From: a virus
Virus record (IMG/VR): IMGVR_UViG_3300033233_000010
Coordinates: 1-64,000 of that record
Direction: 5' to 3' (one strand)
DNA: 64,000 bases
A model generated the notes under the pieces. It ran no database searches. It was not told the DNA's origin and worked only from the letters and a program-made list of their open reading frames with translations. This document shows, piece by piece, positions 5,701 to 52,347 of the stretch. The first letter of the stretch is position 1. Each line of letters starts with the position of its first letter. Made by a program: the position numbers and the translations under genes.

Positions 5701-6145
5701 CGTCGAGCCCCGCCAGCCTTTCGATCACGTTGAGCTGCTCAGTCACCATCTTCCTCAACTCGGCCTCGTCGATCGAGAGAGAATTGTCCGGGGAGTTGAG
5801 GCGGAGACCACGCCCTGCTGTGGGAGTTGGACCCGGGAACCCGTCTCGACCGTTGAGCTTCCCCGACGCGATGAGCGCTTTAATCCACTCGACAACGGCT
5901 GAGTTGTCGCGCCTTGCCGCCGCTTCCAGCTCGTCAAGCGTGGGGGGCTGGCGGCAGGAGATGCCCAAAGGCAGCGAGACCGGAGAGATCGTCGCCACAT
6001 CCGTGTTGACTCGCACGAGATACCAGCCGTCGGCAGGCACCACGAACGGCTGGGCGAGCGGCACCTCGGACTTCGAGTCGATTCCGATGCGCTCGATACG
6101 CCTGCCGCAGTTGAGCCACACCCGCCTGCTCTCGGCGCCGCTCAC
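5693..6145 (-). CDS. Unknown 150-residue protein with VIERLAGL motif
   Basis: GTG start overlaps the upstream stop (GTGA). A beta-rich first half (WYLVRVNTDVATISPVSLP) precedes a helical half and ends with EQLNVIERLAGLDDV, the recurrent C-terminal peptide described in the findings. Function unknown. Confidence 0.7.
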   Translation of the reverse strand: MSGAESRRVWLNCGRRIERIGIDSKSEVPLAQPFVVPADGWYLVRVNTDVATISPVSLPLGISCRQPPTLDELEAAARRDNSAVVEWIKALIASGKLNGRDGFPGPTPTAGRGLRLNSPDNSLSIDEAELRKMVTEQLNVIERLAGLDDV

Positions 6146-6738
6146 AGCGCAGCATCGCCTACCGGGTTGATTCGGTGAAGCCCATCTTGGAGCGTCGGCG
6201 TGGGGGGCTGGGCCGACGGCGGTGCGGCCTTCAAGCAGTCCAGCCGACCGTTGCAGATGTCGATGACGCGCGCCAGTTCCGGGAGGCCCCTGAGCGTTGG
6301 AAACATGGCGAGCGCATCGTCCACGGTACAGTTCTTCGGCCCGTTCCGCACAGCGTGGACTGCGAGCCAGACGAGCTTGATCTCACGCAAGGGGACGTTC
6401 GGCCTGAGCGCCCGTTCGAGCGCCAAGATGGTGCCGGCGATCTCGAAGCCGCTGATCTCGCGCTCGGGGTGCATGTCGTACTCGAAGCCGTCAGCCCACG
6501 TCTTCTTCGTCCACTCCTTACCGAGAATCGACCGACCGATCTTGGTGAGCGTGGCCTCCGCCCGACGCCGCAGCTCGGGCGTCAGGGTGCTCCGCTTCAC
6601 CTTGGATGGGTGCAAGTCCTCCGGCCTGAGCCAGCACTGGAGGCCGTCCTGGTTGTCGGGCGTGGCGACTCTCACGAGAACGTGACCGGCAGGCGGCGGC
6701 TCGCCTTCAACGTAGGGGATTCCCTTGATCTCGCTCAT
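6142..6738 (-). CDS. Unknown 198-residue protein
   Basis: The ATG at 6738 is chosen because a GGGTAGAAC element ends 7 bases upstream; an upstream in-frame start at 6762 would place the element inside the gene. N-terminal beta region (GHVLVRVATPDNQDGLQCWL) then helices, with a Pro-rich end (PPSAQPPTPTLQDG). No family recognised. Confidence 0.7.
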   Translation of the reverse strand: MSEIKGIPYVEGEPPPAGHVLVRVATPDNQDGLQCWLRPEDLHPSKVKRSTLTPELRRRAEATLTKIGRSILGKEWTKKTWADGFEYDMHPEREISGFEIAGTILALERALRPNVPLREIKLVWLAVHAVRNGPKNCTVDDALAMFPTLRGLPELARVIDICNGRLDCLKAAPPSAQPPTPTLQDGLHRINPVGDAAL

Positions 6739-6745
6739 GCTGCTC

Positions 6746-6754
6746 GTTCTACCC
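6746..6754 (-). promoter_or_regulatory. GGGTAGAAC element before 6142-6738
   Basis: Minus-strand GGGTAGAAC, 7 bases before the ATG at 6738. It lies at the end of the upstream gene (6749-7030) and overlaps its stop region. Confidence 0.5.
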
Positions 6755-7030
6755 GAGACCAAGTCGGTCTTCGGCGCGCTCGACGAACTTGGTGAGCTGG
6801 GACGGCGAAAGGCCGGCGACGCGCTCGACCTCCCTGTCGATCGTGGGTGAGGCGGCGCTGGCGAGCCAGCGCTTGAACTCCTCGCGGCTCTTGCCGAAGG
6901 CGTAGAAGACCGTGTGGAGAGCCAGCTCTTCCTGCTCGGAGAGCGTGCGGCCTTGCCGGTAGCGCCGCAGAGAGCGCTTGCCGCACTCGACGAGCCCGGC
7001 GGTGTTCACGACCAGTCGCTTCGTGGACAC
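6749..7030 (-). CDS. Unknown 93-residue helical protein
   Basis: GTG start. Contains LRRYRQGRTLSEQEELAL followed by EEFKRWLA, a diverged copy of the helical module in 3488-4051 and 4071-4391, and a C-terminal EVERVAGLSPSQ. The frame is open back to the upstream gene's stop through a Pro/Ala-rich stretch with no ATG or GTG, so the true start is uncertain. Confidence 0.6.
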   Translation of the reverse strand: MSTKRLVVNTAGLVECGKRSLRRYRQGRTLSEQEELALHTVFYAFGKSREEFKRWLASAASPTIDREVERVAGLSPSQLTKFVERAEDRLGLG

Positions 7031-14341: not shown

Positions 14342-14391
14342 TTTGGGCGAGGCGGACGCGCGAGGTATGAGAGGTGACGCAGGAGGGCCCA

Positions 14392-15849
14392 ATGCGTGAC
14401 GCCTACAAAGTCGTCAAGCAGATCGTCGAGTCGACCAACCCGAAGCAGGCCATGATTCCGCATCAGCGCTCGTGGGTCCGGTACCGCGAATCGCGGGCTG
14501 TAACCGGCGATGCGGTCTGGGTCTTTGCCGATGGAAGCTCCACCGGTCGCTTTGGGGCGATTGTTATTCACCCGCAGACCGGGGCAACGCGGCATGCTGG
14601 ATCGGCTCCGCCGACCGCTACGCGCAACATCGCAGCGGAGCTGAACGGAGCGCTCTTAGGACTCGAAGCGGCGGCTACGCTCGCCAACGGTCTCCCGGTC
14701 ATAGTAGTCCAAGACTACATCGGCGTCGCGGCGTGGATTGTCGGCGCTTGGCAGATCCGGCACGAGGAGGTGGCGGACAAGGTGCGTGCGCTCAAGGCGC
14801 TCATCGAACGAAACGGGTTCGACCTTCGGTTGATCCATCACGCCGGGCACCAGACCGATGGGAGCGACTTCACCAAATGGAATGCCGCTGCGGATGCGAT
14901 GTGCGCCCGCTCAGTCGGCCAACGCTTCTCGATGCTGACCGTGGTTGAGCGATGGTCTGAGGTGGTCGGAGGGCACTCCAAAGCGTTCTGCAAGTGCTTG
15001 TGTGATTGCGGAAGCGGAAAGGTGGTTCGCGAAGACGCCTTGATGCGCGGATCGACCAAGAGCTGCGGCTGCGCGACGGTCTCATTTCACCATAAGCTCG
15101 CCGATGGGGAGAGCTATCTCAACTTCCTCGTTCACACCTACACGCGAAACGCGGCGCGAGGCAGACATCGCTTCGACCTATCCCGGGATGAATTCAAGAG
15201 GCTCATCGTCGCACCGTGCGCTTACTGCGGCGCAGCGCCGACCAAGTCCATCCACTACAACTCAGACAGTCGATTCGTTCACCATGGCATCGACCGCGTA
15301 GATTCCGCCGGGGACTACGTCGCCGCAAACTGCGCAACGGCCTGTAAGGACTGCAACCGCTTCAAACGCGATCTTTCGCTAGATGCGTTCTTACGCCACG
15401 CCTTACTCGTGGCGGCACACGGTGGGTTGACCCCACTCGTAGCGGTCTCTCGGCACCCGCCCGCCGCGCACTACTACGCAGCTGAACGCCTGTGGTTGGA
15501 GACGCAGCGAAACGCAACTAATCGTAAACTTGCGTTCTCGCTGTCGCTGGACAGCTTTTACGGGTTGGTCACGGCCCCGTGCGCATACTGCCGCCAGTCG
15601 CCAACGACGTGCGGAGCAGTGCTGCGCTCCACCAAGCGGCTCTCTGAGAGCGCTTTCGAGCACCACGGACTCGACAGAGTCGACCCGGCGCGATCCTACG
15701 AACCCGAGAACTGCGTTCCGTGCTGCAAGACGTGCAATTACGGGAAGCACCGACTCTCTGCCGCGGCCTTTGTCGAGCTTGCGCGCGGAATAGCACGAGC
15801 GGGCGCAAGATCGGCATCACCGAGCGATAACCGGAACGACGCAGGGTAG
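14392..15849 (+). CDS. RNase HI fused to a homing-type HNH endonuclease
   Basis: 485 residues from an ATG with AGGAGG six bases upstream. Residues 40-174 are an RNase HI domain with the four acidic residues in order: D47 (FADGSSTG), E83 (AAELNGALLG), D108 (VQDYIGV) and D168 (NAAADAMC). Directly after the last catalytic helix comes the zinc module common in phage homing nucleases (GQRFSMLTVV ... CKCLCDCGSG ... KSCGC, 176-228), then two tandem endonuclease-like zinc modules, each CAYC ... HGxDRVD ... CxxxCxxCN (about 262-340 and 382-465). RNase H removes RNA from RNA/DNA hybrids; the tail probably cuts DNA. A lone RNase H would end near residue 175. Confidence 0.88.
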   Translation: MRDAYKVVKQIVESTNPKQAMIPHQRSWVRYRESRAVTGDAVWVFADGSSTGRFGAIVIHPQTGATRHAGSAPPTATRNIAAELNGALLGLEAAATLANGLPVIVVQDYIGVAAWIVGAWQIRHEEVADKVRALKALIERNGFDLRLIHHAGHQTDGSDFTKWNAAADAMCARSVGQRFSMLTVVERWSEVVGGHSKAFCKCLCDCGSGKVVREDALMRGSTKSCGCATVSFHHKLADGESYLNFLVHTYTRNAARGRHRFDLSRDEFKRLIVAPCAYCGAAPTKSIHYNSDSRFVHHGIDRVDSAGDYVAANCATACKDCNRFKRDLSLDAFLRHALLVAAHGGLTPLVAVSRHPPAAHYYAAERLWLETQRNATNRKLAFSLSLDSFYGLVTAPCAYCRQSPTTCGAVLRSTKRLSESAFEHHGLDRVDPARSYEPENCVPCCKTCNYGKHRLSAAAFVELARGIARAGARSASPSDNRNDAG

Positions 15850-35153: not shown

Positions 35154-36008
35154 GTGACGGACGCGAAACGACCGCTGCCCTATCTCATCGCGCGCATCGC
35201 CCACGACGGCAGGCCGTGGCCGGATGACGGCACCTTCGATAAGATCGCGGCGTCCAAGGGGGCCATCCTCGGCGATGACGGTTGGTTCACGCGCGGTCGA
35301 CGCCGAGGCCGGTGGTATCTCGACGTGTCGCTGGCGAACTACGCGCCGATCATCGTGGCGCGCGAAAGGCTCAACGACATCCGCGCGCTCGAAGACCTGC
35401 GTTACCGCGCACAAGTCCACGTCGAGAGGGTACTGGAGCCGCTCTATCAGAAGTCCATCGCTCGGCTCCGGGCAGCTGACGACCCGCGGATCGTCCGCGG
35501 CGACAGGATCATGCGGATCGAGTTCACCAAGGACCACGTCTACTCGTCGGAGAGCTTTCCTACCGAGCGGGAGATCAAGGCCCCGGAGAACGCCGGAATC
35601 GTCGACAGGATCAGCGCAATCCCCACCCCGGACCACGAAGACTTCAAGGCCGGAGAGAACTGGCTGTTTCATCAGCGCGGAATCCACGCGGGTCTGTTCC
35701 GCGTGGGTCGCGCGGAGGCGGCGCTTCGCAAGGCGCTCGACCTCTACCGCCTCAAGCACCACCCGAAGGAGATGAGACTCCACTCGGACAGGCGTCCGAC
35801 CTTCGTCTTCATCATCAACGGGCGCTACTACCCGATCGGGCGCGAGGAGTACCAGAAGAACATCGTCATCTGGCCGCAGCTGTCCGACATCGTGGTCAAC
35901 TTAGACAAGGAGAACACGCGTGGCGAAGATCAAAGTAGTGGACGAGCTTCCGCCCGAGGTAGTGGCGATGCTCGCAGCTCTGTACTCGCGAAGCCCGAAG
36001 AGCGTTGA
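35154..36008 (+). CDS. Unknown 284-residue protein
   Basis: GTG at leaderless spacing from its promoter-like element. Mixed alpha/beta protein: WFTRGRRRGRWYLDVSLANY, GDRIMRIEFTKDHVYSSESF, NAGIVDRISAIPTP (a form of the recurrent peptide), HQRGIHAGLFRVGRAEAAL, RRPTFVFIINGRYYPIG. The last ~30 residues overlap the thyX fragment in another frame and look low-complexity. No family recognised. Confidence 0.75.
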   Translation: MTDAKRPLPYLIARIAHDGRPWPDDGTFDKIAASKGAILGDDGWFTRGRRRGRWYLDVSLANYAPIIVARERLNDIRALEDLRYRAQVHVERVLEPLYQKSIARLRAADDPRIVRGDRIMRIEFTKDHVYSSESFPTEREIKAPENAGIVDRISAIPTPDHEDFKAGENWLFHQRGIHAGLFRVGRAEAALRKALDLYRLKHHPKEMRLHSDRRPTFVFIINGRYYPIGREEYQKNIVIWPQLSDIVVNLDKENTRGEDQSSGRASARGSGDARSSVLAKPEER

Positions 36009-36075
36009 CGAGCATCTGGAGCAGGTTCTCAAGCGTGGCCCCGACAAGTTCATGGACGACTACTACGTCGGCTAG
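35920..36075 (+). pseudogene. thyX 5' remnant (51 codons)
   Basis: GTG with AAGGAG upstream encodes MAKIKVVDELPPEVVAMLAA ... DDYYVG and then TAG. It aligns along its whole length with the first ~53 residues of the complete ThyX at 36915 (shared VAMLAAxYSRxPxSV, RGxxKF, YVG) at roughly 50% identity. The match stops at the GGCTA of the conserved YVGYGHKS motif. I read it as the original gene start, cut off when the endonuclease unit inserted. It keeps a ribosome-binding site and could still make a 51-residue peptide. Confidence 0.85.
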
Positions 36076-36112
36076 GCTGGCAGTAGATCGCCTACGCTGT
36101 TAGCCTGTCAAC

Positions 36113-36955
36113 GTGGCCCATCGGATCTTGCCGCAAGAACACGTCCGTCGCGTCATCGAGATACACGGCACGCGTCTTCGTGTCGTAGACCACTACGTCG
36201 ATGCCCACACGAAGATCCGCTACGAGTGCCCGAGGCACGGACGGTTCTGGGCAGCGCCGAAGAACGTAGTCACCAGGCGCTCGGGTTGCCGTCGGTGCTA
36301 CGAAGCGACGGTTGGTCCACGGTGCCGAAAGACCCACGCGGTCTACACCGCGGAGGCGCGTGCCGTCGGGATTCGAGTAATCGACCGCTACGTCACCGCT
36401 CTGACGCCGATCCGACATCGATGCGCTAAGGGTCACACCTGGAGCACGTCACCGAACCAGTTGCTCTCGGGCTATGGATGTCCGCTCTGCGACCGATCTC
36501 AATTCAGGCGCCGCCCAGTTCGAGTCGGGAACCGGGAAGTGATGCTCCAAGGTTCCGAGGGAGTAGCTGTTGCACTCATGCTTGCCGCCGGTGTCGATCC
36601 TGACGACCTGGCGTTCACAACCGCAGAGGGCCGCCCGACGTTCCGATACAGATTCGACGGTCGGGTTCGCGTCTACGTGCCCGATGCCTTTCAGCTTTCG
36701 GTGCGTCAGGTCATCGAGGTAAAAAGCGCGGTAACGCTCGGGCTCTACGACTCGACACTGTTTGCGCAAGTGAAAGCCAAGGCCCGAGCCGTCGTAGCTG
36801 CCGGACTCTCGTATCGGCTGATGGTCATCCACCGGAAGCAAAACATCGACATCGGTTCGAGCTGGTTTCGGTGGTCGTGGCGAACACTTAACACGCGATT
36901 CAGGAGGAAGACCCATGCCCAAGATCGTCGTTCTCGACGGAAACGACGTTCCTAG
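36113..36955 (+). CDS. PD-(D/E)XK homing-type endonuclease with zinc-finger repeats
   Basis: 280 residues. Two treble-clef zinc repeats (YECPRHGRFWAAP ... GCRRC, and HRCAKGHTWSTSP ... GCPLC; DUF723-like modules of homing nucleases) are followed by a nuclease core: SEGVAVALMLAAGVDPDDLA, then VYVPDAFQL and VIEVKS, giving the E...PD...ExK set. The basic C terminus overlaps the thyX start by 41 bases. It lies exactly between the thyX 5' remnant and the complete thyX, so thyX is its likely target. Confidence 0.85.
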   Translation: MAHRILPQEHVRRVIEIHGTRLRVVDHYVDAHTKIRYECPRHGRFWAAPKNVVTRRSGCRRCYEATVGPRCRKTHAVYTAEARAVGIRVIDRYVTALTPIRHRCAKGHTWSTSPNQLLSGYGCPLCDRSQFRRRPVRVGNREVMLQGSEGVAVALMLAAGVDPDDLAFTTAEGRPTFRYRFDGRVRVYVPDAFQLSVRQVIEVKSAVTLGLYDSTLFAQVKAKARAVVAAGLSYRLMVIHRKQNIDIGSSWFRWSWRTLNTRFRRKTHAQDRRSRRKRRS

Positions 36956-38246
36956 CCCGGAAGACGTGGCGATGCTCGCAGCCATGTACTCACGAGATCC
37001 GCGATCGGTGCTCGACCATCTCGTCCAAGTGAAGCAACGCGGCTCGGCGAAGTTCCACGAGCAGTTTTATGTGGGCTACGGTCACAAGAGCATCGGCGAC
37101 TGCGGCTCGACGACGGTCTTCTTCGAGGGTGTCTCGATGTTGGCGGCGAAGGCCGTGCAGGACACCCCGCTGTACAACGGCCAGGAAGCCTCGACACGCT
37201 ACATCGACTTCTCCACACAGCTGATTCTCAACCCGCTCGCAACGCCGGGTGGGAAGGCTGTGCAGGACGCCTGGATGGCGCTCTACGCAGACACCATCGC
37301 GGCGCTCAAACCGCTTCTCGCCGAGCGCTACCCCCGGCAACCAGACCAGAAAGAGTCGGTGTGGACGAAGGCGATCGCCGCCAAAGCGTTCGACATCGGG
37401 CGGTCCCTGATACCAGCCGGCGGAACCACCAACGTCGCGTGGCACGTCAACCTGCGCCAAGCGTACGACCACAGCCGGGAGATGCGGAATCACCCGCTCC
37501 CCGAGATCGCCGGCCTTGGCGTGGGCGGAATCGAATGCCTGAAGGAGAAGTACCCGTCGAGCTTCTCCCACGAGGCGAAGCTCAAGGACGACAAGGCGCG
37601 CGAGAATTACAAGGCGGAGGAGCACTACATCGCGAAGAGCATGACGCGCTTCGCTTACTTCGCCGACACCGACGCCGTAGACGGGTTCTACGCCGACTTC
37701 GGCAAGCTCGACCTCCGCGCGATGGAGCCGCTCGGCGACCTCCTCGCCTCGCGACCGCCGCGGACCGAGCTGCACCAGCGCTTCCGCCAGTACGGGGTGA
37801 TCACGTTCAAGTTTCTCCTCGACTTCGGCAGTTACCGCGACCTCCAGCGGCAGCGGAGCGCTGTGCAGGAGATGCCGCTCCTCTCAATGCGCCACGGCTT
37901 CCACCCGTGGTACATCGAGCAGATGCCGCTCGGAACCGAAGCGCAGATCGCAGCGATCGGCAAGCTGGTCGAGCGGCTCCCAGCCGACGACTTCACCCGC
38001 CAGTACTACGTGCCCATGGGCTTCCGCTGCCCGGTCGTGATGACGTGTCCGCTCCCCTCGGCGGTCTACATCGCCGAGTTGCGAAGCGGGAACACCGTCC
38101 ATCCCACCCTCCGCGTGATCGCGCAGAAGATGGGCGAAGTGCTCAAGAAGACGATCCCCGAGCTGGCGATGCACCACGATATGTCGCCCGACTCGTGGAA
38201 CGTGAGGCGCGGAACGCAGGACATCGTAAAGAAAGCATCGGCGTAG
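36915..38246 (+). CDS. thyX: ThyX-like flavin-dependent thymidylate synthase, extended
   Basis: 443 residues; a strong AGGAGG lies 7 bases before the ATG, inside the endonuclease gene. N-terminal half carries YVGYGHKSIGDCGSTTVFFE and GQEASTRYIDFS (the ExSxRY part of the ThyX signature). The C-terminal half carries FKFLLDFGSYRDLQRQRSA, where the usual RHR is RQR, and YIAELRSGNTVHPTLR. Typical ThyX is 220-250 residues, so this is a two-lobed form. The enzyme would methylate dUMP to dTMP using FAD and methylenetetrahydrofolate. The first ~55 residues appear to have been replaced, see the remnant upstream. Confidence 0.87.
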   Translation: MPKIVVLDGNDVPSPEDVAMLAAMYSRDPRSVLDHLVQVKQRGSAKFHEQFYVGYGHKSIGDCGSTTVFFEGVSMLAAKAVQDTPLYNGQEASTRYIDFSTQLILNPLATPGGKAVQDAWMALYADTIAALKPLLAERYPRQPDQKESVWTKAIAAKAFDIGRSLIPAGGTTNVAWHVNLRQAYDHSREMRNHPLPEIAGLGVGGIECLKEKYPSSFSHEAKLKDDKARENYKAEEHYIAKSMTRFAYFADTDAVDGFYADFGKLDLRAMEPLGDLLASRPPRTELHQRFRQYGVITFKFLLDFGSYRDLQRQRSAVQEMPLLSMRHGFHPWYIEQMPLGTEAQIAAIGKLVERLPADDFTRQYYVPMGFRCPVVMTCPLPSAVYIAELRSGNTVHPTLRVIAQKMGEVLKKTIPELAMHHDMSPDSWNVRRGTQDIVKKASA

Positions 38247-39908: not shown

Positions 39909-42893
39909 CTAGCCGCAACCTGTGGTGGCCCCACAAGTTAGACAAAACGCGCAGGTTGCGGCTCTGATCGTGGGATTGCCGCAGACCCCACACGGCTGGT
40001 CAGCGGAGAGGGAGAGGCGCGCTCCAGGCTTCTCCGCGAGGAGCTGCCGCAGGTTCTCCCGCACCGTGTCGTTCGCGGCCAGGTCCAGCACGTTCGCCAC
40101 CGTGTTGGCGGGGGCGTGATCGCCGTTCTTCGCGGCGAGGCCCACCGGAAGCTCGTAGCGGTCGGTCTTGGGCTTGGCCTCGTCGACCGGGGCGGGCTTG
40201 TGAGCGAGGTCGTCGCGGTTGAGGTAAGTGACGGCGAGCGTACGGAAGATGTAGTCGATGACGCTGAACGATGACTTGATGCGAGCATCGCCTTGGACCG
40301 GCCCCGACGGCTCGAACTTGGTGAAGGTGAACGCCTCGACGTACTCGTCGAGGGGAACGCCGTGCTGGAGCCCGAGCGAAGTGAGGATGGCAACGGTGTC
40401 GAGAAGGCCCTGGATCGTCGACCCGGCCTTCGCCATGTCGATGAACAGCTCGCCGATCTTCCCGTCGTCGTACTCGCCGGTACGAACGTAGACCTTCTGG
40501 CCGCTGATCGTCGCCTCTTGCGTGAAGCCGCGACGGCGCTTGGGGAGCCGCTTGCGCTCGGAGAGAAGCGGCGGGGCGAGGATGGGCGCGGTCGAGCCTG
40601 GAGCCGGCGTGGGCCGGAGGTCAATGGCAATCGCCTTGGTCTTCTCCTTCTTGGAGGTGAGCACCTGGCATCCCTTGGAGCCGTCGCGGTAGACCGCGAG
40701 CGCTTTGACGCCGAGCTTCCACGACTCGATGTAGACCTGTTCGATCTCGTCGACGGTCGCGCTCTCGGGCATGTTGACCGTCTTGCTGATGGCTCCACAG
40801 AGGAAGGGTTGGGCCGCCGCCATCATCTTGACATGCGCCATAGGCGCGATGAAGCGCTGGCCGCGCTCGCCGCACTGAGTCGCGCAGTCGAAGACGGGGA
40901 GGTGCTCGCGCTTGAGCGTACCCGAGCCTTCGATCGTCTCGTGCGCCGCGATGTGGGCTTCGAGCAGCAGGCGCTCGCTGGGCGCGTAGCCCAGCCGCTC
41001 CAGTGCCGGACCAACCGACTGGTTCACGAGCTTCATCGCACCGCCACCGGCCATCGCCTTGTTCTTCACGAGCGCGAAGTCGGGCTCGATACCCGTCGTA
41101 TCGCAGTCCATGAGAAGGCCGATCGTGCCTGTCGGGGCGAGGAGAGTGAGCTGGGCGTTGCGATAGCCCCACATCTCACCCGCCGTGATCGCGCTCTCCC
41201 ACGAACCCTTGGCCGCAGCGGCGATGTGGATGTCGAAGCGGCTCGGCTTCGATTTCTTCCCCTCGGCGGCGTGCATGCGAGCGACGTTGAGCATGTGCGC
41301 CCGGTTGCGCTCGAAAGCCGAGAAGGAGCCCCTCACCGATGCGATCTCAGCCGAACGGTCCCACGCCGTTGCGGCCATGAGCGACGTGATCGACGCGCAG
41401 ATGCCACGACCCTCGTCCGAGTCGTAGGAAACGCCGAGGCGCATGAGCAGCGCGCCGAGGTTCGCGTAGCCGAGCCCGAGCGGACGTAGCTGGTGGCTAT
41501 TCTCGGCGAACGCCTTGGTGGGGTAGCTGGCGTGATCGACGAGGATGTCCATCGCGAGGATGAGCACGCGACAGACGTGCTCGAATCCTGCGATGTCGAA
41601 GGTGCCGTCGGGGAGCAGGAACTTGACGAGGTTGATCGACGACAGGTTGCACGCGCTGTCGTTGACGAAGTGGAACTCGTTACATGGGTTAGCCGCATCG
41701 ATGCGAGCGAAGTCGGGAACGGTGTTCCAGCGGTTGATCGTCGTGTCGAACATCATCCCGGGGTCGGCGCATCGGTGCGCCGCCTCGGCGATCTTCCGCA
41801 TGAGCTTCTTCGCCTTGAGCGTCTTGGCGACCTTGCCCGTGGTACGGTACTTCGTCTGCCAGTCGCCATCGTTGAGGACAGCGTGCATGAAGTCATCGGT
41901 GACGCGAACCGAGTTGTTGGCGTTCTGGCCCGAAACGGTCGCATACGCCTCGCCGTTGAAGTCGGGCGAGTAGCCGGCCTTCACGAGCACGGCGACCTTG
42001 TCCTCCTCGCGCGCCTTCCACTCGATGAATTCCTCGATGTCCGGGTGGTCGGCGTCGAGGCACACCAGCTTGGCCGCGCGGCGTGTCGTACCTCCCGACT
42101 TCACTGAGCCTGCCGCCGCGTCGTAGACCTTGAGGAACGACATGAGGCCCGATGAGGACCCGCCGCCGGACAGCTTCTCGTTCTTGGCGCGGAGCGTGGA
42201 GAAGTTGGCTCCAGCACCCGAACCGTACTTGAAGATCCGCATCTCCTCGGCGATGCCGAGGCCGATCTGCGTGAGGTCGTCCTTCACCGTACGGATGAAG
42301 CACGCGCTCACCTGGGGGCGCGAGAATCCGTCCAGCGTCTCGCTGGCGACGCCGGTCTTGAGGTCAACGGCCCAGTTGCCGGCGGGATCGCCCTTGATGC
42401 CGTAGCTCTCGTGGAGTCCGAGGTTGAACCACACCGGCGAGTTGAAGGCAACGAATTGACGGACGAGGATGTAGCGCAGCTCATCGCGCAGCGCCCTCAC
42501 GTCTTCGTCGGAGACGAGGTAGCCTTGGCTTCTTCCGGCGTTGGCGATCGCGTTGGCGATCCGGTCGATGACCTGTCGTACGCTCCTCTCGGAGCCGGTG
42601 GCAACCGGCTTTCCGCCGTTCAGGTTGGCGAGCCCGTCGACGACCGACTGCGGGACGCCGCCTTTGCGGAAGTACTTGGAGACGAGGATGTCTCCGGCGA
42701 CCTTCGACCAGGCCACCGGGATCTCCACGTCGTCCATCTGGAAGACGACCGACCCGTCGGGGTTGGCGATCTTCGCCGTGCGACGCTCGAACTTGACTTC
42801 CGCGTAAGGGTCGTGCTCGGAAGCGGTGAAGTGACGCTCAACCGAGATGTGACCGCCGACGCGCGTGGCCGGGCCAACCGCCGCGATGCTCAT
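39909..42893 (-). CDS. nrdJ: Class II (B12-dependent) ribonucleoside reductase
   Basis: 994 residues from the ATG at 42893 (GCAGAGG upstream; a GTG at 42965 would add 24). Conserved NrdJ blocks: FNSPVWFNLG, QVSACFI (cysteine of the redox pair), NPCNEFHFVNDSACNLSS (active-site Cys/Glu), PTGTIGLLMDCDTTGIEP. A TSCPD-type domain follows (GELFIDMAKAGSTIQGLLDT) and the end is a zinc-ribbon tail CGVCG ... CLTCGATTGCG. It reduces ribonucleotides to deoxyribonucleotides with adenosylcobalamin and needs no oxygen and no second subunit. The last codons (for example CTA ACT TGT GGG) are less GC-rich than the copy downstream, suggesting that the present tail is foreign. Confidence 0.95.
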   Translation of the reverse strand: MSIAAVGPATRVGGHISVERHFTASEHDPYAEVKFERRTAKIANPDGSVVFQMDDVEIPVAWSKVAGDILVSKYFRKGGVPQSVVDGLANLNGGKPVATGSERSVRQVIDRIANAIANAGRSQGYLVSDEDVRALRDELRYILVRQFVAFNSPVWFNLGLHESYGIKGDPAGNWAVDLKTGVASETLDGFSRPQVSACFIRTVKDDLTQIGLGIAEEMRIFKYGSGAGANFSTLRAKNEKLSGGGSSSGLMSFLKVYDAAAGSVKSGGTTRRAAKLVCLDADHPDIEEFIEWKAREEDKVAVLVKAGYSPDFNGEAYATVSGQNANNSVRVTDDFMHAVLNDGDWQTKYRTTGKVAKTLKAKKLMRKIAEAAHRCADPGMMFDTTINRWNTVPDFARIDAANPCNEFHFVNDSACNLSSINLVKFLLPDGTFDIAGFEHVCRVLILAMDILVDHASYPTKAFAENSHQLRPLGLGYANLGALLMRLGVSYDSDEGRGICASITSLMAATAWDRSAEIASVRGSFSAFERNRAHMLNVARMHAAEGKKSKPSRFDIHIAAAAKGSWESAITAGEMWGYRNAQLTLLAPTGTIGLLMDCDTTGIEPDFALVKNKAMAGGGAMKLVNQSVGPALERLGYAPSERLLLEAHIAAHETIEGSGTLKREHLPVFDCATQCGERGQRFIAPMAHVKMMAAAQPFLCGAISKTVNMPESATVDEIEQVYIESWKLGVKALAVYRDGSKGCQVLTSKKEKTKAIAIDLRPTPAPGSTAPILAPPLLSERKRLPKRRRGFTQEATISGQKVYVRTGEYDDGKIGELFIDMAKAGSTIQGLLDTVAILTSLGLQHGVPLDEYVEAFTFTKFEPSGPVQGDARIKSSFSVIDYIFRTLAVTYLNRDDLAHKPAPVDEAKPKTDRYELPVGLAAKNGDHAPANTVANVLDLAANDTVRENLRQLLAEKPGARLSLSADQPCGVCGNPTIRAATCAFCLTCGATTGCG

Positions 42894-43096
42894 CCTCTGC
42901 TGCCTCTCGTGCGCTGGGTCTTCTACAGGAAATGCGAGGCCCATCCTACCGCGATCATCTGACACGGCCTAGCCCATCTTCGACCGGTTTTCGCTTTTAG
43001 ATTGAGAACATCGCTGATCGAAATGACGCCGTGCGTTTTCCTGCACGGATCACGGGTTAGCGCGATGTTCCAGGGTGCGACGTGAAGCTAGTTGCC
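42894..43096. other. Leader between dNMP kinase and nrdJ
   Basis: About 200 bases without a gene, including a perfect 6-bp hairpin CCGTGC/GCACGG at 43029-43048 with an 8-base loop, and a GGTAGGAT sequence at 42943-42950 about 50 bases before the nrdJ ATG. No T-run follows the hairpin, so it is not a clear terminator. No cobalamin riboswitch box was recognised. Confidence 0.4.
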
Positions 43097-47780: not shown

Positions 47781-48962
47781 CTACTTGTGGTGGAACTTCT
47801 TGAGGGTTTGCGCCAACCTCGCGCGCTTGCCTTCCTTGCCACCCTTCTCGGCGGCGGCGGCGAGCTTCCCGGCTGGGATCTTCTTGCCCTCGGGCACGCC
47901 CATCTGCTTGTGGAGCGCGCCCTTCTTCATGTGCATCGCGGCGATCCACTTCTTCGCCTCGTCGAGCTGCATGCCGGCGGTCCGATCTTCGGCGACCTCG
48001 GCCTGGGCAGACGCGTCGCGAAGCGAAGCGGCGCCGACACGCGCCTCGCGGAGCATGCTCGCGCTCGGCTGGCTCACGCCCTCCTTGACGGTGATGTCGT
48101 CCTTGGCGAGCGGTGCGGTGCCGCCGTTGGCCGAGTTGAACTGGCCGGGCTCGACCTCGGCGGGCGAGCGGAGCTTGCCGCCGAGACCCTTGAGCGCCTT
48201 GCCGATCTTCTCGCCCTTGGGCTTGGGCACCGACTCGCCCTCGACGGCGGGCTCGGCGTCGACGGGCGGAGTCGTCGTCTCGGTCGTCGGCTTCACTCCG
48301 AGGTCGGCTGCGTTGCGGAGCCTGGCCGCGTCGTCGGCGGCGAACTGCGCGATGTCGGCGATCGTGAACGCCGGCTTGTTGCTCACGCCGGTTCCGAGTT
48401 CGAGCGCCGGGTTCGACTCGTGCTGAGTCTTGAGCGACTTTTCCAGCGCAGCGCCGTCGACCAGCATCGGTCGTTCGAGGAACGCCGTGGGGAGGCGCAT
48501 CGCGGCTCCGGCGTTCCCGGACGTGGTCATCTCGGCGACCAGCTTGTCCTTCAGGGCCGGGAGATCCTCGATCGCGATGTTGAGGATCTCACCGGCGACG
48601 AACTGCTTGATCGCCTTGGCGTCATCACCACTGACACCGTACTGGCGCATGTCGGGCACGCGTCCCATGCGCATCGCCACCTCGGCGATGCCCATGACGA
48701 TCGTCGGGTTGAGCCCACGATCCTCGGCGAACTTGTCGATCTCGGTCTTCCGCGAGTGGAGGACCAGCTCGCGCGTGTCGGGCGACATGAGCTTGGCGTC
48801 GCGGCTGAACCCGCCCACCGGCGCTTCGAGCGGCGAGTCTTCGTCCATGCGCATCGCGGCGGGAGAGTTGAGCGCAGCGCCGGGACCGCCGCTACGAACC
48901 CGATGGTTCGCCGGATCGCTCGGGTCCCACTTGTTCTTGCCGTTCTTTCCGTTGGTACTCAT
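47781..48962 (-). CDS. Virion-cluster protein, paralogue A
   Basis: 393 residues. Starts MSTNGKNGKNKWDPSDPANH and shares with the next gene GGPGA, MRLPTAF, ALELGTGVSNKPAFTIADIA, KPKGEKIGKALKGLGGKLRS, EPGQFNSANGGTA and ASLRDAS. A C-terminal lysine-rich segment is unique. The shared blocks show a duplication followed by divergence; ATGA-coupled to paralogue B. Function unknown, likely structural or scaffolding. Confidence 0.72.
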   Translation of the reverse strand: MSTNGKNGKNKWDPSDPANHRVRSGGPGAALNSPAAMRMDEDSPLEAPVGGFSRDAKLMSPDTRELVLHSRKTEIDKFAEDRGLNPTIVMGIAEVAMRMGRVPDMRQYGVSGDDAKAIKQFVAGEILNIAIEDLPALKDKLVAEMTTSGNAGAAMRLPTAFLERPMLVDGAALEKSLKTQHESNPALELGTGVSNKPAFTIADIAQFAADDAARLRNAADLGVKPTTETTTPPVDAEPAVEGESVPKPKGEKIGKALKGLGGKLRSPAEVEPGQFNSANGGTAPLAKDDITVKEGVSQPSASMLREARVGAASLRDASAQAEVAEDRTAGMQLDEAKKWIAAMHMKKGALHKQMGVPEGKKIPAGKLAAAAEKGGKEGKRARLAQTLKKFHHK

Positions 48963-50692
48963 CGTTCTCCTCGTAGTACGGCAGCGCCGACGCCCGATCC
49001 GCGAAGCACCCTAGCGCTGGGGGTGTCCAGGTCTTCCTTCACCGAGATGTCGAAAGCCGGAAGCGTGGCGGTGCCATGCGAGGCGTTGTTGAACTGCCCC
49101 GGCTCCGCTTCGGCTGGCGACCGCAGCTTGTTGCCGAGCCCCCTGAGCACCCGACCGATGCGCTCACCCTTGGGCTTCGGGATTGTGTCCTCGGAGAACA
49201 CGTCGGCGAGCGTGTGGTGCTGCTCGGTGTGCTCCTCGGGGAGTCCGGCGAGCTTGCGACCGTGCTTATGCGCGGCGGCGAACGCCGCATCTCCCTTTGC
49301 CCTGTCGGGGTGCTGGAGGACACTCTTCCAGTCGCCAGCCGCCATGTGCTTGAAGAGGTCGCCGAAGTGGGGATCGTCGTGGGCTTGCTTGGCAAGCTCC
49401 GCGGCTCCGGCTTGGGCGTGCTCGGTGGAAGTACGGTTCTTCGGATCGGACTTCTCCGCCTTCACCTTCGCCATGATCTTGTCCATCATCCCCTGGATCG
49501 GCGACTTCGGCTTGGCCGCGGCCTGCGCCGCCATCTTCGCGTGTTGAGCGGCCAACTTCGCCTCGCGCTCAGCCGCGGCCTTTTCAGCGGCCTCCTTCTT
49601 CGCCTTCTCTTGCCCTTCCTTCTTCGCCTTCTCCTCCGGGGTATCGGGCTGGTCGAGATCGAGCTTGGAGAAGCGCTTCCAGATGTGCGAGTCGACGCCG
49701 GGGGGCACGGGCTTCTCACCGGACTTCGCCGGTTCGGCTGCGGCAGATGCAGCCTTGGGCGCGGGTCCTGCCGTGGGCTCCGGCTTGGCGTCCGCGTTGT
49801 GGATCGGGTGATCAGGCGCGTGCCCCATCGAGCGAGGCACGCCGAAGACCATCTTCCAGCCTTCGGGGAGATGCCCCTTCGTCTTGAGCTGCGCGAGCGC
49901 CGTCGACTGCTCCGACGTGAGCTTCTTGGTGGGGTCGATGTGGTCCGAGTGCGGCGAGCCGGAACCGTAGTGGATGTTCAGGCTGTGACCTGGCTTCACG
50001 TCGAGGTGCCCGATGCCCTTCATCGCGATGGAGTGAAGCACGGGGCCGGGCGTGACCTTGCCCCAGTCGGCCTCGTGCTTCTCCTTGTGGCCCTTCGTCT
50101 GTTGGCTGACCCAGGCTTCGAGATCCTTGTGGACCTTGTGCTGAGGGGACTTGACCGCGTGCTTCGTGTCAGGGTTGCTGCTGCTCGGCTTGCCATGCTT
50201 GACGACGTGATGCACAGCCGCCTTCACCGGCTCCGGCAGATCCTTGAAGTTCTGGTGCTTGGTGAGGTCGTGGATCGTCGGCGTGCCCTCGAAGTTCTCC
50301 ACGACTGGGCGCAGAGCGCGACGGGCGTCCTCGTCGGCGAGCTGGGCGATGTCGGCGATGGTAAGCGCCGGCTTGTCGGACACGCCCGTCCCGAGGGAGA
50401 GCGTGGGGCGCGTGTTCTCGCGCTCGGCGATCTGTCGCTCCAGCTGACCGATGTCGATCATCGCGGGACGGCTCATGATCGCGGAGGCGAGGCGCATCGC
50501 CTGGGGACACGCTGGAGCATCGGCGCCGGAGTCCTCTTGCAACGGGCGGGGCTCCGTCTCGGGCTCCGGCGTCGGCTCCTGCTCCAGCGCCGGGAACATG
50601 GCGGAGGTGAGAGAGGCGCCAGGCCCGCCGTTACGAACCCGGTGATTGGCGGGATCGTTCGGGTCCCACTTCTTCTTGCCGTCCTTGCTCAT
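48959..50692 (-). CDS. Virion-cluster protein, paralogue B with insert
   Basis: 577 residues from the ATG at 50692. Same N- and C-terminal blocks as paralogue A (KKWDPNDPANHRVRNGG; SLGTGVSDKPALTIADIA; KPKGERIGRVLRGLGNKLRS; EPGQFNNASHG). In between is a His/Lys-rich domain absent from A (DLTKHQNFKDLPEPV; SHIWKRFSKLDLDQPDT) and a long charged helix (EKAKKEAAEKAAAEREAKLA). Possibly a scaffold or internal head protein. Confidence 0.72.
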   Translation of the reverse strand: MSKDGKKKWDPNDPANHRVRNGGPGASLTSAMFPALEQEPTPEPETEPRPLQEDSGADAPACPQAMRLASAIMSRPAMIDIGQLERQIAERENTRPTLSLGTGVSDKPALTIADIAQLADEDARRALRPVVENFEGTPTIHDLTKHQNFKDLPEPVKAAVHHVVKHGKPSSSNPDTKHAVKSPQHKVHKDLEAWVSQQTKGHKEKHEADWGKVTPGPVLHSIAMKGIGHLDVKPGHSLNIHYGSGSPHSDHIDPTKKLTSEQSTALAQLKTKGHLPEGWKMVFGVPRSMGHAPDHPIHNADAKPEPTAGPAPKAASAAAEPAKSGEKPVPPGVDSHIWKRFSKLDLDQPDTPEEKAKKEGQEKAKKEAAEKAAAEREAKLAAQHAKMAAQAAAKPKSPIQGMMDKIMAKVKAEKSDPKNRTSTEHAQAGAAELAKQAHDDPHFGDLFKHMAAGDWKSVLQHPDRAKGDAAFAAAHKHGRKLAGLPEEHTEQHHTLADVFSEDTIPKPKGERIGRVLRGLGNKLRSPAEAEPGQFNNASHGTATLPAFDISVKEDLDTPSARVLRGSGVGAAVLRGER

Positions 50693-50809
50693 CGGGGTCC
50701 CTCGGTTGCCGTCTCGGGCTCTAGACGAACTGGAATAGGGTAGCACCTAAGAGTCTACCCCTAAAGCCCGTTCGATGCCTAGCGTCCGCCGACGACCCAT
50801 CGGCCCAGT

Positions 50810-51193
50810 TCAGTTCGGTCCGGTTCCGGCAACGGCCCGAGCCATGTCCTCGCGCGTTCGCTTGCTCGGGCCGAAGTAGAACGCCTTGGCGCCGAACAGA
50901 CGAACGGCGTAGTAGTACCGCCACGCCGCGAACCTGTAGAACAGGCGCTTGAACCAGGTGCTCTGCCTACGCGCGTGTTCAGCCATCGCCTTGTGGAACC
51001 GCCGGTCGGCATCGTAGCGATCACGCTTCGTGCAGCCGAGCCAGTAGTCGAAATCGTGAGTCTCACATGGACAACCGAAAACCAGATCTGGAATTATCCA
51101 TGAGATGCCTCTAGGTCCGCACCCGTTACATACCGCCTTCCGTTCGGCTGGCGTAAGGTCTTCAAACCGTAAGGGACGAGCCGGAGTGGTCAC
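50810..51193 (-). CDS. Phospholipase A2-like phage protein
   Basis: 127 residues from a GTG that overlaps the nuclease stop (GTGA); a TTG at 51217 is less likely. Residues ~20-60 carry NGCGPRGISWIIPDLVFG, CPCETHDFDYWLGC and RYDADRRFHKAM, the CGP, C..HD..Y and AD..F pattern of secreted PLA2 enzymes, with HD as catalytic pair. A basic aromatic C-terminal half follows (FKRLFYRFAAWRYYYAV). The 5' part uses less GC-rich codons than the old 5' end still fused to the nuclease upstream, which suggests it arrived with that nuclease. Confidence 0.75.
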   Translation of the reverse strand: MTTPARPLRFEDLTPAERKAVCNGCGPRGISWIIPDLVFGCPCETHDFDYWLGCTKRDRYDADRRFHKAMAEHARRQSTWFKRLFYRFAAWRYYYAVRLFGAKAFYFGPSKRTREDMARAVAGTGPN

Positions 51194-52032
51194 TTGATTA
51201 CCCTTGCGATCTTCCAACCGTGATGAGCTATCTTACGCCCATGCACAACCTCGTAGAACCCCCATTCACCCATTCCGCGCTCGCGGCAAAAGACCTTGAG
51301 GTTGTCAGTCTCGAAGACAGTCCCGCTCGGATCGGTGATCGTGTAGCGAAACGTGCAGTGCGCCTCGCTGATCTTACGCCGATGTTCGGGCGTCTTTGGT
51401 TTTCCCGTGTGCAGGCAGCGTAGACGCTCGACTTCCTTTAGCGAAAGACGACGACCCAGGTGCGTCGCGCTAATCTTTGCCCGCGCCTCCGGCGAGTGTG
51501 TCTGGCCCCACATCGAGTTCTTCTTGCCGAGCTTGCACACCCGCATCTTCCTGATAGAGGCTGAGCGATGGCGTCTGCCGAAACCGCCGAGACCTCCCGG
51601 TGTGCAGTTGTAACCGTTCTGAATAGATGCCAGCCTGGCGATCCAGTGCCGCTCGGCGGTATCAAGTTCGGCTTGGTTAGAACACGCAGCCACCACTGAC
51701 ACTGTAAACGCGGTCCAACCATACTTGGCTATTGCGCACGCCAGCTTAGGCTGTCTTCGGCAATGACCTCTTCGGTAATTGTCCAGGCGATGCGCTAGAT
51801 CAACCGTCTGCCCGACATAGACACGACCACTCGGGCTACGAAGACAATAGACGACGCCGAAGTGGTCGCACGCAGACTCAAAGACGAAATTCGATACGCT
51901 GCTCTCGATACTCAAACACGGACACCCGAAGATCAGATCGGGGATGATCCACGAGACGCCCTTGGGACCGCAGCCGTTCGAGACAGCTGCGATCTCTTGC
52001 TTGGTCAGGACTTCCCAGGTGATCGAGGTCAC
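51190..52032 (-). CDS. GIY-YIG homing-type endonuclease fused to an old gene start
   Basis: 280 residues. Residues 1-39 (MTSITWEVLTKQEIAAV, NGCGPKGVSWIIPDLIFG, CPC) are a second copy of the start of the PLA2-like gene downstream. In the same frame follow GVVYCLRSPSGRVYVGQT (GIY-YIG motif, with catalytic Arg and Tyr), LDTAERHWIARL and NGYNCTPGG, then NUMOD3-like DNA-binding repeats (NSMWGQTHSPEARAKIS; HTGKPKTPEHRRKISEAH) and a C-terminal HTH-like module. The nuclease unit breaks the old gene between CPC and ETHD. Confidence 0.9.
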   Translation of the reverse strand: MTSITWEVLTKQEIAAVSNGCGPKGVSWIIPDLIFGCPCLSIESSVSNFVFESACDHFGVVYCLRSPSGRVYVGQTVDLAHRLDNYRRGHCRRQPKLACAIAKYGWTAFTVSVVAACSNQAELDTAERHWIARLASIQNGYNCTPGGLGGFGRRHRSASIRKMRVCKLGKKNSMWGQTHSPEARAKISATHLGRRLSLKEVERLRCLHTGKPKTPEHRRKISEAHCTFRYTITDPSGTVFETDNLKVFCRERGMGEWGFYEVVHGRKIAHHGWKIARVIK

Positions 52033-52035
52033 GCG

Positions 52036-52347
52036 CTAGTCCGTGAAGCGGTACGAGAAGCTCTGGTGCCCGGCGTCCTTGACCTTTACGGTGACGGACC
52101 CATCGCCCTTGGTGCCGAAGCTCGGTCCGAGCGTGAGGACGAGTTTGCCGTTGGCGTCGAGCACCCCATCCACCGGAGAAATGTACATGGGCGCTGTGGT
52201 CTCCAGCGTGACCTTCTTGCCCGCCCCCGCCGTGCCGTTCTTGTGCTCGATGGTGAGCTTCTGCAACGAGGACTGATCGCCCTTGACGAGAACGGGTGCG
52301 CCGCTCTCGATGGCGGTGTTGTCTTTCTTGACGACGAAGCCAGCCAT
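52036..52347 (-). CDS. Small Ig-like virion protein, 103 aa
   Basis: Beta-rich: MAGFVVKKDNTAIESGAPVL, KKVTLETTAPMYISPVDG, VLDANGKLVLTLGPSFGTKG, SVTVKVKDAG. DANGKLxxTxGxS is shared with the next upstream gene product, so both carry a related Ig-like module. Likely a head decoration or tail protein. Confidence 0.7.
   Translation of the reverse strand: MAGFVVKKDNTAIESGAPVLVKGDQSSLQKLTIEHKNGTAGAGKKVTLETTAPMYISPVDGVLDANGKLVLTLGPSFGTKGDGSVTVKVKDAGHQSFSYRFTD

Follow-up and report, generated by a model that had tools for sequence, protein, structure and literature searches.

A putative end-replacing homing element at a phospholipase A2-like gene of a phage, and comparable arrangements in other phages

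The window analyzed here is a stretch of 64,000 nucleotides (positions 1 to 64,000 of IMG/VR virus record IMGVR_UViG_3300033233_000010) and forms part of a 121,783-base record with phage replication and packaging genes. On its minus strand, from 52032 to 50810, lies a phospholipase A2-like (PLA2-like) locus in which one gene start occurs twice, at the head of a nuclease frame and again at the head of the complete gene directly downstream. Why does a nuclease begin with the start of the gene that follows it? Very probably, the locus holds an end-replacing homing element, a mobile unit in which the nuclease is joined by a recoded copy of its target gene's 5′ end that is presumably proof against cleavage.

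The open reading frame at 51190-52032 has a GTG start, opens with VTSITWEVLTKQEIAAVSNGCGPKGVSWIIPDLIFGCPC, and then runs in frame into a GIY-YIG/NUMOD3 nuclease (Table 1). The TGA stop of the nuclease overlaps the GTG of the complete PLA2-like gene at 51193, which has its own version of the start, NGCGPRGISWIIPDLVFGCPC, followed by ETHDFDYW; the reading frame caller had placed this start at a TTG at 51217, upstream of the GTG. The break falls three residues ahead of the HD pair, and the earlier note on this DNA had likewise put it just before the catalytic HD. Here and at the thyX gene of the same record, a nuclease gene has a complete target gene on one side and, on the other, a displaced fragment corresponding to one end of that gene, a layout like that of the WHO elements.

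Table 1. Window positions of the features of the PLA2-like and thyX loci.
Feature	Positions (strand)	Evidence	Remarks
Upstream neighbour of the PLA2-like locus	52036..52347 (-)	Ig-like fold, weak	Ends 3 nt ahead of the old PLA2 start
Displaced old 5′ end of the PLA2-like gene	51916..52032 (-)	24/36 aa identity; native GC3	39 codons, forming the N-terminus of the nuclease frame
GIY-YIG + NUMOD3 homing-type endonuclease	51190..51915 (-)	Pfam/PHROG matches; GC3	
Nuclease catalytic domain	about 51607-51858 (-)		
NUMOD3	51469-51579 and 51358-51405 (-)		
GTGA overlap of nuclease stop and new PLA2-like start	51190..51193 (-)		AAGGG just before
New, apparently imported 5′ end of the PLA2-like gene	51065..51193 (-)	GC3; change point within 4 codons	43 codons
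Native 3′ part of the PLA2-like gene	50810..51064 (-)	GC3 phage-typical; weak PF09056 match	From ETHDFDYW on
Displaced old thyX 5′ end	35920..36075 (+)	57.7% aa identity over 52 residues to the thyX start	Stop directly after the break (YYVG*)
Treble-clef/CapR + DUF7487 nuclease	36113..36955 (+)	Pfam; alignment with PaBG and GR7B nucleases	Conserved PD...EVK residues
New thyX 5′ end	36915..37076 (+)		Own ATG with AGGAGG; through YVG|YGHKSI
Native remainder of thyX	37077..38246 (+)	GC3 0.884; alignment to other phage ThyX proteins	From conserved YGHKSI

Both nuclease domains score above their Pfam cut-offs: GIY-YIG (PF01541) at E 2.6e-8 and 34.5 bits (cut-off 22.6), and NUMOD3 (PF07460) at E 6e-12 and 45.7 bits (cut-off 20.4). 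The protein also matches the homing endonuclease family phrog_314 (E 3e-31). The target is less securely named. Its match to PF09056 (E 7e-4, 20.7 bits) lies below the Pfam cut-off of 29.4 and does not place it in the family, although a C-x-x-H-D-F motif backs the weak phospholipase A2 call. The label of the earlier note is accordingly kept at "PLA2-like".

The two starts are diverged copies of one stretch. By blastp, 24 of 36 residues are identical (67% aa, E 1.6e-16), which confirms the duplication described in the earlier note; judged by this alignment it is far above chance level. Over the same codons DNA identity is 62%, and the same codon is used at only 10 of the 24 identical residues, so the duplication is not recent.

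Base composition separates the copies. Ranked against the phage's own coding windows, third-position GC (GC3) is native-looking in the old start (0.795, 31st percentile) and in the 3′ gene body (0.821, 37th percentile); it is foreign-looking in the nuclease body (0.647, 0.3 percentile) and lowest in the new start (0.442, 0.09 percentile). This comparison with the phage average, a check proposed with the earlier note, bears out its observation that the old start uses GC-ending codons whereas the downstream copy is richer in A/T-ending ones. The two best GC3 change points fall at codons 36 and 327 of the concatenated frames (log-likelihood gain 10.3), against codons 39 and 323 predicted from the break, with a wide confidence range for the left break.

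The same layout recurs once more in this phage. A six-frame self-comparison of the whole 121.8 kb record yielded two nuclease-interrupted 5′ duplications only, the PLA2-like locus and thyX (35920-38246), but the thyX nuclease is PD-(D/E)XK-type rather than GIY-YIG, which supports the earlier view that the arrangement arose twice independently with different nuclease classes. The thyX break lies directly ahead of YGHKSI, which other phage ThyX proteins also conserve, and the nuclease end and new start overlap by 41 nt. Composition gives a weak signal here, the new start being mildly atypical (GC3 0.72, 10th percentile). The divergence of the two thyX start copies (dN 0.36, dS 1.49) matches the expectation for two functional gene starts.

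Several other features of this phage were recorded along the way. The neighboring minus-strand genes at window 47781-48962 and 48959-50746 resemble each other in diverged segments at either end (63%, 52%, and 79% aa identity) and, from these alignments, look like tandem paralogues. A 491-aa protein at window 14374-15849 has weak to moderate PHROG matches over different stretches to endonuclease VII, several HNH families, and an RNase H family. The phage also encodes a CobT-like cobaltochelatase and a porphyrin-biosynthesis-type ATPase (L004:14433-16145 and L004:18116-19387), together with a B12-dependent ribonucleotide reductase (window 39909-42965).

Searches of phage records, IMG/VR, and genome contigs returned neither homologues of the PLA2-like gene nor an empty allele of its locus, and searches of IMG/VR gave no relatives of the PLA2-locus nuclease or of thyX. 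To see whether the layout represents a class, loci were gathered from IMG/VR by nuclease motif and the DNA before each nuclease was compared with the DNA after it; figures from these pattern scans hold among the matches listed and are not unbiased frequencies. A first sample of 14 phage loci contained no further case, and none of the 112 GIY-YIG/NUMOD3 frames listed had the layout, so that the PLA2-like locus is the single case so far for its nuclease class. (Eight aligned GIY-YIG nucleases were too diverse to serve as a scan query.) NUMOD4-HNH frames were more productive: among the 242 listed, at least 10 are 5′-type cases, with at least eight in the first 121 (L153, L155, L180, L196, L206, L220, L253, and L254) and at least two in the second 121 (L312 and L333). 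Matching cross-locus control pairs numbered 24/14,520 and 32/14,520.

The genes concerned encode a Cas4-type exonuclease, ResIII-type helicases, a Ref-like nuclease, terminase large subunits, an N6/N4 methyltransferase, an SU10-type portal protein, and a ParB-like protein. In the helicases and terminases the break lies just ahead of the nucleotide-binding motif, and in the methyltransferase ahead of the catalytic one. Relics usually end at the break or within a few codons of it. Like the PLA2-like locus, L312 has its relic joined in frame to the nuclease, but the old start is unfused and closed by a stop at thyX and at most of the remaining loci. Of eight cases measured, seven have a new start that overlaps the nuclease stop by 4 or 8 nt, and in the eighth a 2-nt gap separates the two. 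At L206, L253, L254, and L312, the C-terminal WK of the nuclease is written with TGGAAG, which puts a ribosome-binding-site-like GGAAG directly ahead of the overlapping new start.

Comparisons between loci bear on which parts of the arrangement travel together. Identity between L206 and L254 is 0.90 for the nuclease, 0.88 for the new start, 0.71 for the relic, and 0.77 upstream; between L206 and L253 the corresponding values are 0.75, 0.72, 0.78, and 0.89, and between L155 and L180 they are 0.79, 0.78, and 0.58 for nuclease, new start, and relic. On these identities the nuclease and the new 5′ end have a common history: similarity in the new start keeps pace with that in the nuclease, and similarity in the relic does not.

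Two candidates were set aside. At L091, two HU-like genes surround a nuclease, but both copies are complete. At L177:1565-2723, a repeat of about 130 bases and ~90% identity flanks an HNH gene, and a recent DNA repeat is likelier there than gene-end replacement. Two mirror-image, 3′-type cases were found, L261 and a Roseovarius methyltransferase-like gene. On the minus strand of L261 (complete gene 6074-6952), a Toprim-like gene with a diverged 3′ end is followed by an HNH nuclease and then a displaced 3′ fragment; GC3 is 0.28 in the new end versus 0.52-0.60 in the relic. In the Roseovarius MAG OX638333.1, the same NUMOD4-HNH gene has a methyltransferase-like gene on one side and a displaced 3′ fragment on the other at L397, L406, L419, L433, and L439. 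These five sites occur in one chromosome, clustered near the contig ends and spaced roughly 48 kb or multiples thereof, and perhaps represent a repeated or concatenated prophage.

Empty and occupied alleles can be observed directly in the cas4 gene of mycobacteriophages. L153 is phage Ichabod; it, McGuire, SarFire, Lesedi, DreamCatcher, and AFIS carry a relic, an HNH gene, and cas4 with a new start, and BillKnuckles, Magnar, and Nepal have an uninterrupted cas4 gene. Relics are 93-100% identical to the intact alleles over 45 bases. New starts are 67-69% identical to them, the next 42 bases 45-48%, and the remaining gene body 95-99%. Nuclease and new start together make up a 650-base unit that shows 99.7% identity in a comparison of Ichabod, McGuire, and SarFire, and the upstream flanks of the six occupied phages are all different; at an identity of at least 99.4%, the unit is present in 15 records. 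Nuclease and new 5′ end are a single unit here. Lopton has kept the element, and its relic is not detectable. McGuire gene 72 (L466:875-979), annotated as a separate "exonuclease" gene, is the displaced 5′ relic.

These alleles, together with composition and the thyX locus, support the proposal of the earlier note that the downstream 5′ end is imported and the old start a relic. At the PLA2-like locus itself, the replacement start is diverged and compositionally foreign; travel of a new start together with its nuclease is seen for the HNH relatives only.

How might such an element move? The nuclease would recognize a conserved stretch of the intact target, in this phage the PLA2 active-site region or, at thyX, the YGHKSI motif. 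An empty allele would be cut and then repaired from an element-bearing phage by double-strand-break repair, with the old start serving as the left arm and the gene body as the right. Repair would insert the nuclease gene along with a diverged, recoded copy of the target's 5′ end and would leave the old 5′ end upstream; at the PLA2-like locus this remnant is fused in frame, so the old start codon could drive the nuclease. The imported 5′ end would join the old 3′ part to give a full-length gene without splicing, its site altered. In the mycobacteriophages the recoded stretch extends past the break, and both halves of the cleavage site would therefore be altered. That the nuclease of the PLA2-like locus cuts DNA, that the new allele resists it, and that the element moves are inferences from sequence.

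Other histories could leave a similar pattern. A tandem duplication of the PLA2 gene, with one copy hit by a nuclease gene, its 3′ half lost, and the copies then diverging, would likewise yield a truncated copy beside a full one. This is improbable at the PLA2-like locus, where the foreign composition covers both nuclease and new start and stops near the break. New starts also abut the nuclease stop at all measured loci except thyX, with its longer overlap. For mycobacteriophage cas4 a plain tandem duplication is excluded by the comparison of empty and occupied alleles and by the near-identical unit in different backgrounds, the intact allele matching the relic and not the new start. The polarity might instead be reversed, the downstream start being native and the upstream fragment imported with the nuclease. 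The absence of an empty allele, and nothing else at this locus, leaves room for that history, which is less probable again: the upstream fragment has native GC3 and follows its operon neighbor by 3 nt, the downstream start looks foreign, and in the mycobacteriophages it is the upstream relic that is native.

The fused N-terminus could also serve the nuclease, in DNA binding or autoregulation, as a domesticated fusion rather than a relic. The in-frame fusion kept at the PLA2-like locus and L312 fits this idea, but we consider it very improbable given the unfused, stop-terminated old starts at thyX and most other loci. The earlier note had named a conserved N-terminal nuclease part as the finding that would speak against its reading; among 40 listed phage GIY-YIG relatives this N-terminus is absent, almost all alignments beginning after it, and since it matches the target gene it is not a general nuclease domain. 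Least probable of all is a group I intron or intein, from which the nuclease would be spliced out to join the old start to the 3′ part. GIY-YIG nucleases do often reside in introns, yet there is no Rfam match even at E 5, and intein motifs, judged by eye, do not place the locus among inteins. Splicing is also not needed, as the nuclease frame is closed by a stop codon of its own and the gene after it is complete, start included.

A homing element within coding sequence is commonly assumed either to rely on an intron or intein that spares the gene or to split it. Exchanging the end of the gene is a third way, described in yeast in 2020 and, at 3′ ends, in fungal mitochondria. If end-replacing homing is the correct explanation here, the replacement of gene ends would be a general strategy of several nuclease families that affects many target genes. 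It is likely that phages carry a widespread, previously undescribed class of homing elements, drawn from unrelated nuclease families and moving as a nuclease with a recoded start, which swaps the 5′ ends of essential genes at catalytic motifs and so produces mosaic evolution inside single genes, and that a mirror 3′ type also exists in phages. The layout accounts for truncated gene starts annotated as separate genes (e.g., McGuire gene 72) and offers a way for mosaicism within genes to arise exactly at catalytic motifs. A ready test system exists in the mycobacteriophages of M. smegmatis, whose empty and occupied alleles occur naturally.

The closest parallels are found outside phages. In Torulaspora and Lachancea yeasts, WHO elements exchange the 3′ end of FBA1 and thereby render the gene resistant, and cleavage has been measured (Coughlan et al. 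2020, PMC7282813). As is proposed for the phage elements, an endonuclease gene forms a unit with an end of its host gene that resists cleavage; homing swaps this end, the gene stays intact with no need of splicing, and displaced fragments remain behind. In contrast, WHO elements occupy nuclear yeast genes, encode HO/VDE-type nucleases, and lie downstream of the gene whose 3′ end they replace, whereas the phage elements use GIY-YIG, PD-(D/E)XK-type, or HNH nucleases and lie upstream of a replaced 5′ end. The PLA2-like element would work like a WHO element and is not a member of that group, because it pairs a GIY-YIG nuclease with a 5′ end rather than an HO/VDE-related nuclease with a 3′ end. 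Fungal mitochondrial mORFs (Allomyces atp6; Glomus atp6, atp9, cox2, and nad3; PMC3630166) similarly combine an endonuclease ORF with a foreign, diverged host-gene end, a displaced native end, and an expressed hybrid gene; unlike the phage elements, they are mitochondrial, affect C-terminal ends, and mostly encode LAGLIDADG nucleases. Free-standing and intron-borne phage homing endonucleases (T4 seg/mob, I-Tev) share nuclease families and conserved target genes with the present elements, but the outcomes that a keyword search of a T4 review (PMC2988022) brought up are introns, intergenic insertions or free-standing genes, and split genes, with no replaced gene end found there. A recent phage survey (PMC10448857) mentions WHO elements solely in connection with how HO arose. 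Searches of the openly licensed literature found no description of such elements in phages or at 5′ ends, and priority is not certain. What appears new here is the 5′ mirror image of end replacement, in phages and from several nuclease families.
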